Positions 46,273-50,011 of a DNA stretch of 64,000 nucleotides are shown here, in pieces. The DNA is taken from NCBI RefSeq assembly GCF_006352025.1, contig NZ_CP040936.1, forward strand, positions 1,798,001 through 1,862,000. The letters are read 5' to 3'. Below the pieces are notes generated by a model, which made no database searches, had not been told where the DNA came from, and saw nothing but the letters and a program-made list of their open reading frames with translations. The DNA is from Hymenobacter sp. DG01. GTDB lineage: Bacteria; Bacteroidota; Bacteroidia; Cytophagales; Hymenobacteraceae. Positions within the stretch are counted from its first letter, which is position 1, and every line of letters begins with the position of its first letter. A program made the position numbers and the translations under genes.

Positions 46273-47031
46273 TTATTCTACCAGCCGGGCCTGCAGTTGC
46301 TGCAGGGCCTGGGGTAACTGCTGCATATCTTCCAGCACGAAGTATAGCTCCTGAAATTTATCTTTCTCGAAGGCCGTGTCCAGCACGCCGTCCAGGGTGA
46401 ACGGGAGGCGGGTAGGCTGCTCGCCCAGGCTGAATTTCACTTCGCCGTGCGAGGACAGCAACCCAGCCCCGTAGATGCGCAGGCCATCGGGCTGCTGCAC
46501 CAGCCCGAACTCGGCCGTGAACCAGTACAGCCGCGTGAACAGCTCCAAAGTGCCGGGCCAGCGGTTAGCGTGGTGCTGAGCCGCCTCGCCCAGTTGCTGC
46601 AGAAACTCCGCAAATCCGGGGTTTGTCAGCAGCGGCACGTGCCCGAATACATCATGAAACATGTCGGGCTCCTCCAGGTAATCGAGCTGCTCCAGCTTGC
46701 GCAGCCAGGTAGTGGCCGGAAACTTGCGCTGGGCCAGAAGCCCAAAAAACTCCGCGTCGTCCACGAGGCCGGGCACTACTACCAGCTCCCAACCCGTCAG
46801 CTCCCGCAGGCGCGGGTTCACCTCCCGAAAATCCGGGATTCTGTCGCGGGTAAAGCCCACCTATCCTACCCCTTCCAGAAAGGCATCGGCGGCCCGACCA
46901 GGTAGTAAGGCCAGCTGTCGGTCGAAGAGCAGCTGCCATACGTGCTGGTCGGCGGCGGTGTAGCGGCTATAGTCCTGGGTCAGGAGGGGCAGGGCGGCGG
47001 AAGCAACGGGAGCAATCAGAGAAGTCATCAT
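46273..47031 (-). pseudogene. phhA: Phenylalanine 4-monooxygenase, interrupted by an in-frame TAG
   Basis: The frame from ATG 47031 reads 56 codons (…YSRYTAADQHVWQLLFDRQLALLPGRAADAFLEGVG), meets TAG at 46861-46863, and continues in the same frame with VGFTRDRIPDFREVNPRL to the natural end at 46273. The intact neighbour aligns straight through this point without a gap (AFGQGLAAVGFHRN), so one base change explains the stop. All iron ligands are present: FHDVFGH and Glu in WFTAEFGL. If read through it would be an aromatic amino acid hydroxylase of about 250 residues making Tyr from Phe. It could be a true nonsense mutation, a sequencing error, or a split gene restarting at the GTG (46860). It has its own Tyr-rich leader and attenuator. 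Confidence 0.85.
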
Positions 47032-47052
47032 CTGAAACGAGAAATTGGGGTG

Positions 47053-47096
47053 AAAAAGAAAAAGCCTGCCTCCGCACGAAGCGGAAGCAGGCTTTT
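47053..47096 (-). terminator. Attenuator terminator upstream of the first hydroxylase gene
   Basis: On the minus strand a 16-base stem (47096-47081 with 47075-47060; one G-U pair) with loop TTCGT is followed by TTTTTCTTTTTC. It stands 24 bases after the leader-ORF stop codon and 22 bases before the ATG at 47031. It therefore lies inside the 5' leader, not after a gene. Confidence 0.85.
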
Positions 47097-47120
47097 GAAA
47101 AGTGTCGGTAGGAAAAGTTG

Positions 47121-47204
47121 CTATCCTCGCTGACACGCCGTGGCCGCTCCGCTCCGGTGGGGAGCGTAATAAGCGTAGGCGTAATAGCGCGAGGTCAACA
47201 GCAT
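47121..47204 (-). CDS. Tyr-rich leader peptide (attenuator)
   Basis: A 27-codon ORF beginning MLLTSRYYAYAYYAP, in which codons 7, 8, 10, 12 and 13 are Tyr, ending in TAG 24 bases before an intrinsic terminator. Its ATG lies six bases after a consensus promoter box, so the message would start almost at the AUG. Codons 17-20 read GGAGCGGAGC, whose GCGGAGC part can pair with GCTTCCGC in the 5' arm of the terminator (47088-47081). Stalling at the Tyr codons would free that segment and prevent termination, the classic attenuation logic, for an enzyme that makes tyrosine. The ORF and signals are seen in the sequence; the mechanism is inference. Confidence 0.72.
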   Translation of the reverse strand: MLLTSRYYAYAYYAPHRSGAATACQRG

Positions 47205-47209
47205 GGGAG

Positions 47210-47239
47210 CAAATGTAAGACAGGAAACGAAACCAGCAA
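47210..47239 (-). promoter_or_regulatory. Consensus Bacteroidota promoter for leader and first hydroxylase gene
   Basis: TTG (47239-47237), exactly 19 bases, then TACATTTG (47217-47210), a full match to TTG-N19-TAnnTTTG. Expected transcription start is about 47205, at or next to the leader AUG. Confidence 0.8.
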
Positions 47240-47416
47240 GATTAAGCTGAGCCGTAGTTCGCGGTTCACTCTTGCTGGCACTTTGCCACCAAGACATTTA
47301 CTCGAACAACATCAGGCAGATTCGATAGCGGAACATAGTATCGCACAAAACCAGGCCCAATCAAACCAAAGTGGCTTATACAAACTACTGTATGTTATTA
47401 AGTGATGTTGATAATG

Positions 47417-47632
47417 CTAGCGCCTACGCAGCCTCTTAAGTATTCCCCAAAGCCCAAAACTGAGGAGAATGAAGAGGAGGGACAAAAAAACAGGCCATCC
47501 TATTACGAAGAGGATGAATAGCCAACCTAACAGGTGCTCTACGACAACGGGCAAATGAAAGCCTGAGGTTAGCCATGCTATCAGTAGAACTGAAAAAAGC
47601 AGCACTAAAACAACACGCAACAGGAAAGGCAT
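47417..47632 (-). CDS. Small two-helix membrane protein
   Basis: A 71-residue ORF with two strongly hydrophobic segments (LLRVVLVLLFSVLLIAWL and LLGWLFILFVIGWPVFLSLLFILLSFGLWG) and a basic end (LKRLRRR), a pattern of a genuine small inner-membrane protein. Composition is less GC-rich than the neighbours. It lies between the two hydroxylase genes on the same strand. I do not recognise a family; it could also be a chance ORF. Confidence 0.5.
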   Translation of the reverse strand: MPFLLRVVLVLLFSVLLIAWLTSGFHLPVVVEHLLGWLFILFVIGWPVFLSLLFILLSFGLWGILKRLRRR

Positions 47633-47714
47633 GCCCCAAGGTAGAAGCCCAAATCGATTTTGTGTGACCTACTCGAAAATCATTCAAGCCCCTACCCCTC
47701 CTGTTTTCCTGAAC

Positions 47715-48449
47715 CTACTCCACGGGCTGCAGCTGCCAGCCAGAGGAGAACAGAGCGGCTAGGTCGGCAACGCTTTCCGTGAGCTGGTCCCAGCTGTTGA
47801 GCACAAAGTACTGCTCCTGCAAATGGGCTTCGCTGTAGGGCGTGTGTAGCACCGTGGCCAGGTCGAAGGGGTGACGGCGGGTAACGTCGCTGATGCAATG
47901 GTGGATTTCGCCGGAGGAGGAGAGCAGCCCGGCGCCGTACATGCGAGTTTCGCCGCGCTCCTCTACCAGACCAAACTGCACCGTGAAGCCATACAGCCGT
48001 TCCAGCCGCTGCAGCGCCACGGCATCGTGGAGGTGACGGGCGGCCACCTGGCCCAGGAAGTGCAGAAAATCGGCAAAGGCCTGGTCCATCAGCAACGGTA
48101 CGTGCCCGAAAACGCCGTGGAACAAGTCGGGCTCTTCAATGAAGTCGAATTGCTCCATGGACCGGATCCAGACGGTAGCTGGAAACTTGCGCTGGGCCAG
48201 CAGCCCGAAGAAGTCAGCATCATTCAGCGCACCCTGCACGGGTTCCAGCTGCCAGCCGGTAGCTTTCTGCAGGCGCTGGTTTACTTCCTCGAAGTTGGGA
48301 ATAGCATTGCGGTGAAAGCCTACCGCTGCCAGCCCCTGCCCGAAGGCCGAGCAGGCGCGCTTATGCAGCAGGGCCGTTTGCCGATCGAACAATACCTTCC
48401 AAACCAACTGGTCCTGGGCGGTGTACTGGTCGTAGTGTTGCTGTACCAT
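47715..48449 (-). CDS. phhA: Aromatic amino acid hydroxylase (phenylalanine 4-monooxygenase family), iron-ligand Glu replaced by Gln
   Basis: A 244-residue, complete pterin-dependent hydroxylase of the bacterial type, which would convert Phe to Tyr. Family stretches: YTAQDQLVWKVLFDRQTALL, FFGLLAQRKFPATVWIRSMEQFDFIEEPDLFHGVFGHVPLLMDQAFADFL and YGAGLLSSSGEIHH. The two His iron ligands (FHGVFGH) are kept, although Asp is replaced by Gly between them. The third ligand, Glu in the usual VEFGL, is Gln here (FTVQFGLV; codon CAG). Activity may thus be reduced or changed. It is paralogous to the interrupted gene downstream and has a separate promoter, leader ORF and terminator. Confidence 0.92.
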   Translation of the reverse strand: MVQQHYDQYTAQDQLVWKVLFDRQTALLHKRACSAFGQGLAAVGFHRNAIPNFEEVNQRLQKATGWQLEPVQGALNDADFFGLLAQRKFPATVWIRSMEQFDFIEEPDLFHGVFGHVPLLMDQAFADFLHFLGQVAARHLHDAVALQRLERLYGFTVQFGLVEERGETRMYGAGLLSSSGEIHHCISDVTRRHPFDLATVLHTPYSEAHLQEQYFVLNSWDQLTESVADLAALFSSGWQLQPVE

Positions 48450-48473
48450 GAGAATGTGCCGGTTATAGGGCAG

Positions 48474-48510
48474 AAAAAAAGCCCGGCTCCTGTTTCGGAG
48501 TCGGGCTTTT
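48474..48510 (-). terminator. Attenuator terminator upstream of the second hydroxylase gene
   Basis: On the minus strand a 14-base stem (48510-48497 with 48490-48477; AAAAGCCCGACTCC, one G-U pair) is followed by T7. It lies 25 bases before the ATG at 48449 and 33 bases after the leader-ORF stop, inside the 5' leader. Its 5' arm GCCCGACT can instead pair with GGTCGGGC (48574-48567) in the leader ORF, a ready antiterminator. Confidence 0.85.
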
Positions 48511-48543
48511 GCTTGATTTTCAGAGAAGTGTCATACTGTGCTG

Positions 48544-48633
48544 CTACCTTCCATGTTCGCAAAGAGGCCCGACCTCGCCCTGCACGGGGCGAATATTCAT
48601 CAGGTTAAAGCACTTCGCGGTTAGGTTCAGCAT
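48544..48633 (-). CDS. Leader ORF of the second hydroxylase gene
   Basis: A 29-codon ORF starting MLNLTAKCFNLMNIRP and ending …CEHGR-TAG. It begins eight bases after a TATATTTG -7 box. It is not rich in Tyr or Phe (a single Phe at codon 9), unlike the other leader, so the sensed signal may be different or read by RNA structure. Codons 20-23 hold GGTCGGGC, complementary to the terminator 5' arm, in the same place as in a classical attenuator. Translation is unproven. Confidence 0.5.
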   Translation of the reverse strand: MLNLTAKCFNLMNIRPVQGEVGPLCEHGR

Positions 48634-48640
48634 GATGCTG

Positions 48641-48648
48641 CAAATATA
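48641..48648 (-). promoter_or_regulatory. -7 box TATATTTG of the second hydroxylase leader
   Basis: Perfect TAnnTTTG on the minus strand; transcription would start at about 48636, next to the leader AUG at 48633. No TTG at the ideal 19-base distance. Confidence 0.6.
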
Positions 48649-48691
48649 TAGTATTTCAGAAACAACTCGCACAGCCTGAGCCTGGTTTTTC

Positions 48692-50011
48692 TCAGGCGGC
48701 CAGTATCCAGTCGAGCAGTAGCACCCCCGCCAGCCCCACCACCGACACGATGGTTTCCATCATGGTCCAGGAGCGAAACGTGTCGCGCGCGCTCAGGTTG
48801 AAGTACTCCTTGAACAGCCAAAAGCCCGCATCATTCACGTGGGACAAAACCAGACTGCCGGCCCCAATGGACAGCACCATCAGGTTCGGGTTGACGTGGG
48901 CCTGCGCTACAGTGGGCAGCATAACCCCGGCCGCCGTGAGGCCGGCAATGGTAGCTGAGCCCAGGCACACCCGGATGACGGCCGCAATCAGCCAGCCTAG
49001 CAGCAGAGGCGGTAACCCGGTGCCCTGCAGCCCGGCCGCCAAATCGGCACTGACGCCGCTGGCTACCAGCACCTGCTTCAGGGCGCCTGCACCGGCAATG
49101 ATGAGCAGAATCAGGGCCACATCTTTAATAGAGGCCGAGTACGCCTCCATCACGGCCGGCAGCGGTTTGCCCAGGGCCGTGCCCAAACTGAAAGTGGCTA
49201 CCCCCACCGACACCAGCATAGCCACAGCCGGCTCGGCCAGGAACGCCAGGGCGGGGGTTAGGGCGTTGTTGGGGGGTAGCACGGCCTTCAAGCCCAGCAC
49301 ACCCACCAGCAACAGCACCGGCAGCAACGACGATAGGAAGCTATTCAGCTTGCCAGGCAGAGCGCTTTCCGGCAAGGATTCTACCTGAAAACTAGCCAAA
49401 GGCACCGACACGATACCTCGCAGGGTGCGGCCGTACACCGGCCCGGCCAGAATGATGGCTGGAATGGCAATGAGCAGCCCGTAGAGAAACGTGAGGCCCA
49501 GGTTGGCGTGAAACTGGGCTACCAAGGCGGTTGGCGACGGGTGCGGGGGTAGGAACCCGTGCATCACCGACAAGGAGGCCAGCATGGGCAGGCCCACGTA
49601 CACGGCCGGCAGCTGGTACTTATACACCACCGAGAAGATAAGCGGAATCATGAGCACGAAGCCCACATTATAGAACAGCGGAATACCAATGATAAAGCCC
49701 GCCACCATCATCGTCCACTGGATGTGGCGCGTGCCGAACGCGGAAATCAGGACGGCGGCAATCTGCTGGGCGGCACCGCTTTCGGCCACTAGCTTGCCCA
49801 GCATGGCCCCCAGCACAATCACCAGCAGCACCGAGCCCAGCGTATCGCCGAGGCCCTGGTAGATGGCAGCCATTAAGGGGCCCGGCGCCAACCCGAAGGC
49901 CAGCCCTACCCCTATCGTCACCAGCAAAAAGGCCAGAAATGCGTGCACTTTGGCCCAGCTGATGAGCCCAATCAGCACCAGAATGGCTACCAGAAGAATC
50001 AGGAATGTCAT
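48692..50011 (-). CDS. gntP: Gluconate:proton symporter (GntP family)
   Basis: A 439-residue membrane protein with about 12-14 helices and GntP signatures: IYQGLGDTLGSVLLVIVLGAMLGKLVAESGAAQQIA, HGFLPPHPSPTALVAQFHANLGLT and SATIAGLTAAGVMLP, with SHVNDAGFWLFKEYFNLS near the end. It imports gluconate for the kinase encoded upstream; gntK-gntP are 18 bases apart on one strand. The pathway continues in the divergent gnd-zwf-pgl genes. Confidence 0.94.
   Translation of the reverse strand: MTFLILLVAILVLIGLISWAKVHAFLAFLLVTIGVGLAFGLAPGPLMAAIYQGLGDTLGSVLLVIVLGAMLGKLVAESGAAQQIAAVLISAFGTRHIQWTMMVAGFIIGIPLFYNVGFVLMIPLIFSVVYKYQLPAVYVGLPMLASLSVMHGFLPPHPSPTALVAQFHANLGLTFLYGLLIAIPAIILAGPVYGRTLRGIVSVPLASFQVESLPESALPGKLNSFLSSLLPVLLLVGVLGLKAVLPPNNALTPALAFLAEPAVAMLVSVGVATFSLGTALGKPLPAVMEAYSASIKDVALILLIIAGAGALKQVLVASGVSADLAAGLQGTGLPPLLLGWLIAAVIRVCLGSATIAGLTAAGVMLPTVAQAHVNPNLMVLSIGAGSLVLSHVNDAGFWLFKEYFNLSARDTFRSWTMMETIVSVVGLAGVLLLDWILAA

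Follow-up and report, generated by a model that had tools for sequence, protein, structure and literature searches.

A putative tyrosine-codon attenuator ahead of phenylalanine hydroxylase genes in Hymenobacter and related Bacteroidota

Background

Does a short, tyrosine-rich reading frame, lying between a promoter and a terminator ahead of a phenylalanine 4-monooxygenase gene (phhA2) of Hymenobacter sp. DG01, make this gene responsive to tyrosine, or does it stand there by chance? The question is raised by one locus in a stretch of 64,000 nucleotides (contig NZ_CP040936.1, positions 1,798,001 to 1,862,000), which is referred to hereafter as the window and from whose first base all positions are counted. 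Leader-peptide attenuation is a classical mode of gene control, exemplified by the trp and phe types, and bacterial phenylalanine hydroxylase is usually described as a catabolic enzyme. We suggest, from comparative analysis of sequences, that the element is very probably a ribosome-mediated transcription attenuator that would sense tyrosyl-tRNA and control phhA, which in this lineage would serve the synthesis of tyrosine from phenylalanine.

Organisation of the leader element upstream of phhA2

The whole element lies on the minus strand, in the 5' to 3' order of promoter, leader ORF, terminator and hydroxylase ATG. The putative promoter is of the Bacteroidota type (47210–47239), with TTG (47239–47237) and TACATTTG (47217–47210) separated by 19 nt, and 5 nt further on the leader ORF begins with the ATG at 47204. 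This ORF (47121–47204, delimited from the sequence and from 35 aligned Hymenobacter leaders) has 27 codons, encodes MLLTSRYYAYAYYAPHRSGAATACQRG and ends with a stop codon at 47123–47121; five of the seven codons between 47186 and 47166 (leader codons 7, 8, 10, 12 and 13) specify tyrosine. A gap of 24 nt separates the stop codon from the stem of an intrinsic terminator (47060–47096, seen in the sequence and in the alignment), which consists of 16 base pairs (47096–47081 with 47075–47060) followed by a T tract, and another 28 nt lead to the hydroxylase ATG at 47031. The original prediction had named this very series of parts, including the TTG-N19-TACATTTG promoter close ahead of the ORF, the five tyrosine codons within codons 7–13 and the terminator 24 bases beyond the stop, and all of them could be located at the expected places.

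Three alternative pairings can be drawn within the transcript between four segments, numbered 1 to 4. Segments 1 and 2 form a putative protector hairpin (47150–47166, from pairing in the alignment) of six pairs, CGCUCC/GGAGCG, which opens with the third base of Tyr codon 13. The candidate antiterminator segment 2, GCGGAGCGGC (47143–47152), is complementary to segment 3 in the 5' arm of the terminator (47092–47081), with which it can pair if two U residues are bulged out, and segments 3 and 4 make up the terminator itself. The complementarity claimed originally between the leader and the terminator arm is present, with its leader side placed at codons 18–21 rather than 17–20. In folds of the truncated leader only, a further hairpin is predicted across the leader stop codon (47102–47136), inside the antiterminator helix.

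Short ORFs are common in this region of the window, and the simplest alternative would be a chance tyrosine-rich ORF next to an ordinary terminator. This is contradicted by the wide conservation described below, and a short ORF with at least three tyrosine codons in seven, preceded by a TAnnTTTG box and starting with ATG, occurs once in the window and in 0/100 dinucleotide shuffles of it. We consider the probability of such a coincidence to be negligible.

A scan for sigma-70-type promoters at the leader found none, and the promoter assignment rests on the -7 box of Bacteroidota, the consensus and position of which are given in the accessible parts of PMC9723704 and PMC6847099. A strict TAnnTTTG box ends 4–6 nt before the leader ATG in 26/35 Hymenobacter leaders; a relaxed version is seen in 5/35 and no recognisable box in 4/35. 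Since the box in Flavobacterium psychrophilum is placed at -12 to -5 (PMC9723704), this spacing would predict a 5' UTR of 0–2 nt, with the leader AUG at +1 to +3. By this analogy, the nearly leaderless translation proposed at the outset would hold for the 26 leaders with the strict box; the four that have no box weigh against the scheme. Such a start would be uncommon in the phylum, judging by what these sources report: leaderless mRNAs account for 5.5% of those examined in F. psychrophilum (PMC9723704), and leaders exceed 10 nt in 87% of the predicted transcripts of F. johnsoniae (PMC6847099).

Conservation of tyrosine codons and RNA pairing in Hymenobacter

A covariance model (R1) built from 35 Hymenobacter leaders gave scores of at least 98 bits in 36/120 Hymenobacter genomes, once in each, with the next matches in the family at no more than 42 bits (matches covering mainly the terminator were excluded from these counts). 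The hydroxylase domain PF00351 is present in 119/120 of the same genomes, and four of the phhA loci read in this genus (L011, L014, L059 and L065) have no recognisable tyrosine leader. Thirty-five of the 36 leaders, including that of the window, were aligned (alignment A1; the leader of G096 was left out).

Among the 34 distinct leader ORFs, the first two conserved tyrosine columns are kept in 34 and 33, and the other two in 31 each. The conserved columns use both TAT and TAC, a synonymous change, length differences between leaders come in whole codons, and the residues that separate the tyrosines vary (YYAYAYY, YYYAATYY, YYRYCSY). The tyrosine codons are kept, as the original reading of the element required. 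The alternation of TAT and TAC also bears on the idea that the transcript is a riboswitch-like structured RNA, which would bind a ligand directly and in which the ORF would be incidental. Segment 2 contains several positions at which the nucleotide never varies in Hymenobacter, as such an RNA might demand, and the alternating tyrosine columns speak against it. Further to that, no Rfam family passed its gathering threshold in the window, riboswitch and leader families included, and matches at a relaxed E-value lay far below their gathering scores; the one with the lowest E-value reached 24.6 bits against a cut-off of 140 and was discarded as chance. No T-box was found in the window at gathering or among the relaxed matches of 46950–48760, and a relaxed search of eight relatives for riboswitch and leader families gave one match, under its cut-off.

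The residues that follow the tyrosine run, A-P-x-R-S-G-A-A, are also conserved in Hymenobacter. This would be expected of nascent-peptide arrest, where free tyrosine, phenylalanine or a pterin would cause the leader peptide itself to halt the ribosome. Against this, the codons of these residues coincide with the arms of the hairpins.

Taken together, hairpin 1:2 and the terminator are paired in 92.5% of cells across the 35 leaders, with seven pairs changed on both sides, a result that none of 500 shuffles equalled (0/500). Both structures contribute: 5/16 pairs of the terminator stem show changes on both sides, as do 2/6 pairs of hairpin 1:2 (96.2% of cells paired when taken alone), one of these two being unpaired in 8/35 leaders. 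The 2:3 complementarity is kept in 95.4% of cells, compared with 39–50% when one strand is slid by 1–3 columns. No compensatory changes were found in 2:3 among the 35 leaders, and 500/500 shuffles scored as high; its support therefore consists of retained complementarity, with none from the shuffle control. The predicted pairing scheme is in this way backed by covariation for the terminator and hairpin 1:2, and by retention without compensatory changes for 2:3.

When leaders were cut before arm 4 and folded, 2:3 was predicted in 29/35 with arm 1 covered (6/35 failed the criterion applied), and hairpin 1:2 in 26/35 with arm 1 free. With the ribosome placed at six different positions in turn, energy folding of the full-length window leader always yielded the terminator, and no switching was seen. 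The choice between the structures would consequently have to be kinetic, as it is held to be in known attenuators.

We propose the following sequence of events. RNA polymerase would start at the leader AUG or 1–2 nt before it, and the ribosome would initiate at the 5' end of the RNA; to our knowledge, the phylum lacks Shine-Dalgarno sequences. With ample tyrosine, the ribosome would translate the leader up to the stop codon, hairpin 1:2 would form behind it and the terminator 3:4 would end transcription. With little charged tyrosyl-tRNA, the ribosome would stall on Tyr 12–13 and cover arm 1, upon which arm 2 could engage arm 3 ahead of the synthesis of arm 4, so that no terminator would arise and phhA would be transcribed. 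A stall at Tyr 12–13 agrees best with this scheme, since hairpin 1:2 would be masked by a ribosome at these codons alone, assuming that it covers ~16 nt on the upstream side and ~13 nt on the downstream side of the first nucleotide in the A-site codon; a stall at Tyr 7–8 would leave the hairpin free to form, and the later codons are expected to carry the most weight. The conserved tyrosine codons, the covarying 1:2 and 3:4 and the retained 2:3 agree with the earlier reading of the element as an attenuator.

Tyrosine-rich leaders of phhA in other genera

On 390 sampled genomes of the order (E ≤ 1e-4), R1 gave high scores only in Hymenobacter, with weaker full-length matches in two genomes of group g4; its restriction to the genus is explained by the rapid divergence of the leader sequence. 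Four weaker full-length matches (L125, L128, L129 and L130) were rejected, none being a tyrosine leader of phhA. Beyond Hymenobacter, reading the ORFs ahead of phhA worked better than R1. In Pontibacter (group g5), phhA is present in 42/50 genomes and a tyrosine-rich leader precedes it in 42/42 (30 + 12 read). These leaders are mostly longer than those of Hymenobacter, with 7–11 tyrosine codons in the 36 tabulated, and a terminator-like sequence, weakest in L141, precedes all 30 of the phhA genes scored for it. Most Pontibacter leaders (L134–L161, L185–L196) share an N-terminal stretch on the 5' side of the tyrosine run, for example MHKPAAIATTLSLP.

Tyrosine leaders also precede the three high-scoring phhA genes of g4 (G138, G142 and G135) and phhA in 8/8 genomes of g6, where the threshold was three tyrosine codons in 14 and two of the leaders have three only. 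Among named loci, where at least four in 14 were demanded, a tyrosine-rich leader was found before phhA in 31 of the best 80 of 575, 12 of them within the family and 19 outside it; these 80 were the best by match to a Pontibacter-led alignment and are not a random sample. Two more (L247 and L277) passed the filter, for 33/80, and were dropped as likely chance. The occurrences outside the family include Marivirga, Roseivirga, Fulvivirga, Echinicola and MAGs of Chitinophagales. The upstream search that had been proposed as a check on the prediction was productive in Hymenobacter, Pontibacter, g4, g6 and this selected set of loci alike. In four phhA loci of Algoriphagus (L209, L215, L224 and L229), 17-codon ORFs mixing tyrosine and histidine codons, such as MNPTPRTYIHHSHYYLQ in L229, are followed by terminator-like sequences, and no such ORF was seen in the two loci of Belliella that were read.

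Outside Hymenobacter the leader sequences are largely unrelated, and near the tyrosine run the 19 outside-family leaders do not visibly resemble that of Hymenobacter. What is kept is the tyrosine run. This weighs on both of the alternatives raised above: the leaders of Pontibacter, Marivirga, Fulvivirga and Roseivirga retain tyrosine runs and not the Hymenobacter sequence, which speaks against a structured, ligand-binding RNA, and the A-P-x-R-S-G-A-A residues do not recur alongside the tyrosine runs of the other genera, which speaks against an arresting peptide. We regard a riboswitch-like RNA as very improbable and give arrest by the nascent peptide just as little credence, and we retain the ribosome-mediated attenuator responding to tyrosyl-tRNA as the preferred explanation.

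Across a tree built from 101 hydroxylase proteins, leader type goes with enzyme clade. With leader labels assigned by hand, 10 changes were counted for tyrosine leaders, against a shuffled mean of 32.7, and two (shuffled mean 28.0) for a second kind of leader, type A, that is described below. Two of the Hymenobacter loci without a tyrosine leader, L059 and L065, fall inside a tyrosine-leader clade and so look like losses, L011 and L014 not being part of the tree; 17 other Bacteroidota rows were labelled as having no tyrosine leader.

Tyrosine-leader phhA in genomes lacking TyrA

TyrA (PF02153) was found above its cut-off in 164/204 genomes of the family. The 40 genomes counted as lacking it comprise 33 with no match (20 listed and 13 deduced by absence) and 7 with a match below the cut-off, taken as the seven weakest. 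Tyrosine-leader phhA genes are present in 37/40 genomes lacking TyrA, compared with 52/164 of those that have it (Fisher p = 7.7e-13, in a test that ignores shared ancestry). These 37 are spread over g1 (8, two of them 81% complete), g4 (2), g5 (23) and g6 (4). The other three (G126, which is 78% complete, and both of g3) have no phhA at all, and as the g3 genomes are complete, their lack of both TyrA and PhhA argues against any rule that one or the other must be present. The 52 genomes in which TyrA and the tyrosine leader occur together also count against the proposal. In Pontibacter, TyrA is present in all eight genomes that have no phhA.

This association points to a role of the tyrosine-leader phhA in tyrosine synthesis. 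Together with the score of an intact relative (L031) above the TIGR01267 cut-off, it suggests that the controlled gene makes tyrosine, the same amino acid that the leader would sense. Such a role has been put forward from fitness data in Echinicola vietnamensis, where, according to the available text of PMC7311316, phenylalanine hydroxylase and a prephenate or arogenate dehydrogenase were proposed as redundant routes to tyrosine.

The genome from which the window is taken has a TyrA of its own, in a row of genes for prephenate dehydratase, an aminotransferase, TyrA and a DAHP synthase with chorismate mutase (Pfam assignments). Upstream of this pheA-tyrA operon (L197, G000:C1:3696000-3704000) stand two tandem leaders with phenylalanine and tyrosine codons, MRQHTGRFFFSYYFYYATT and MLTPAFFYYGYYRFFFTKKPGPVCRS, each followed by what appears by eye to be a terminator-like sequence. 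A similar leader, MPAPAFFYYGYYYFFPKKRGRICRS, was seen before like genes in G098 (L131).

The interrupted phhA2 and its paralogue phhA1

The gene downstream of the tyrosine leader (phhA2, 46273–47031, minus strand; from its frame and profile matches) contains an in-frame TAG at 46863–46861, which falls at position 35 of the 228 residues matched. The frame is otherwise open to 46273, and PF00351 is matched by the part that follows the stop. Among the 35 Hymenobacter phhA2 copies compared, over their aligned part, an internal stop is found in the window copy only (the comparison took in the 35/36 loci above a 55% identity cut, L016 being below it); the stops flagged in G096 and in three further copies are at the gene ends. 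The intact relatives L031 and L036 score above the TIGR01267 cut-off, and a Pontibacter copy (L142) is above that of NF008877 and below that of TIGR01267. The hydroxylase originally named as the controlled gene is in place, with its ATG at 47031, in an interrupted form that the original prediction did not mention.

Owing to this nonsense codon, what the switch controls today may be a product that is truncated or non-functional, and in the window genome alone the element could be a decaying remnant without present function, an explanation that is compatible with a working attenuator in the relatives. The unique stop and the presence of TyrA in the same genome both favour it. On the other hand, the leader is undamaged along with its hairpins and terminator, all of which resemble those of the relatives, and the TAG may be a sequencing error. 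We view decay in this one genome as a serious possibility, if a somewhat improbable one, and continue to read the leader itself as an attenuator.

An intact paralogue, phhA1 (47715–48449, minus strand), lies in tandem upstream of phhA2; its product is above the NF008877 cut-off and below that of TIGR01267. Between phhA1 and the phhA2 leader we noted a hydrophobic ORF of 71 codons (47417–47632, minus strand). phhA1 has a leader of a different kind, type A (48474–48648, minus strand; from sequence and alignment), with a TATATTTG box, a 29-codon ORF (MLNLTAKCFNLMNIRPVQGEVGPLCEHGR, 48633–48544) that has no tyrosine codon, and a terminator with a T tract (48510–48474). Leaders of this type precede many Hymenobacter phhA genes, and in general consist of a TATATTTG-like box, an ORF of 28–30 codons, a hairpin, a GUCGGGC motif complementary to the 5' arm of the terminator, and the terminator; the hairpin and the GUCGGGC motif are both present in 36/55 of the leaders collected. 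In an alignment of 54 sequences (a 24-codon version, L044, was excluded from the count), 63/63 gap runs within the ORF are multiples of three, and gaps beyond it are of many lengths. We had taken this leader for a riboswitch on first reading and dropped the idea on account of the in-frame gaps, which make it more likely that the ORF is translated.

Elements that resemble type A in appearance were also seen in g4 and g6. In several Hymenobacter genomes another group of phhA genes (L075, L076, L080, L083, L086, L089 and L091) lies behind the end of what looks by eye like a DAHP synthase gene, with a type A-like leader in between.

Relation to known systems

A wider picture can be sketched, for which we find the case almost evenly balanced and just short of persuasive. 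Cytophagales and their relatives may have attenuators for aromatic amino acids that are organised as a regulon and whose leader AUGs stand at the 5' end of the RNA. Stalling at tyrosine codons would turn phenylalanine hydroxylase into a regulated tyrosine synthase that replaces TyrA, and type A would be a second translated leader, lacking a tyrosine run, which senses another signal by an undescribed rule. The attenuator proposed here gives a testable reason to view bacterial phenylalanine hydroxylase as an enzyme of tyrosine synthesis in one set of environmental bacteria. Tyrosine on its own would join the amino acids that are known to be sensed via leader peptides, and tyrosine-leader phhA could serve as a genomic marker for tyrosine prototrophy where TyrA is absent.

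In the open-licence literature searched (among the top-ranked titles and beginnings of abstracts listed), no tyrosine leader or attenuator of phhA is described. Leader-peptide attenuation as such has been proposed in Bacteroidota before: attenuators of this class are placed ahead of amino acid operons in F. psychrophilum, with a conserved 5' element at pheA (PMC9723704). These share with the present element the phylum and the choice of amino acid biosynthesis operons as targets, and differ from it in that a tyrosine leader and phhA are not named in the accessible part of that report. For tyrA operons of other bacterial groups, putative attenuators are attributed to the Merino database in PMC1173090; they too are aimed at genes of the tyrosine pathway, and as far as the text at hand goes, their targets are tyrA operons and no tyrosine leader is placed before phhA. 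The tandem leaders of the pheA-tyrA operon in the DG01 genome are alike in being leader ORFs with aromatic codons, behind each of which lies a terminator-like sequence, and unlike in mixing phenylalanine with tyrosine codons and in forming two units in series.

Control of a phenylalanine hydroxylase is known from the phh operon of Pseudomonas aeruginosa, which is described in PMC1173090 as being transcribed from a sigma-54 promoter activated by PhhR, in a catabolic setting. The gene controlled is of the same kind, but the means is an activator protein and not attenuation. A close parallel in design is with the leader attenuators of the trp, his and phe types, reported from Proteobacteria and Actinobacteria, with a histidine leader proposed in Firmicutes (PMC2965389). 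Like these, the element ahead of phhA2 has a short ORF carrying the cognate codons, a putative protector hairpin, a candidate antiterminator and a terminator, all placed before a gene concerned with that amino acid. Unlike them, it would rely on tyrosine codons alone, act on a phenylalanine hydroxylase, operate in Bacteroidota and begin its leader peptide at an AUG that lies at the predicted 5' end of the transcript or within 2 nt of it.
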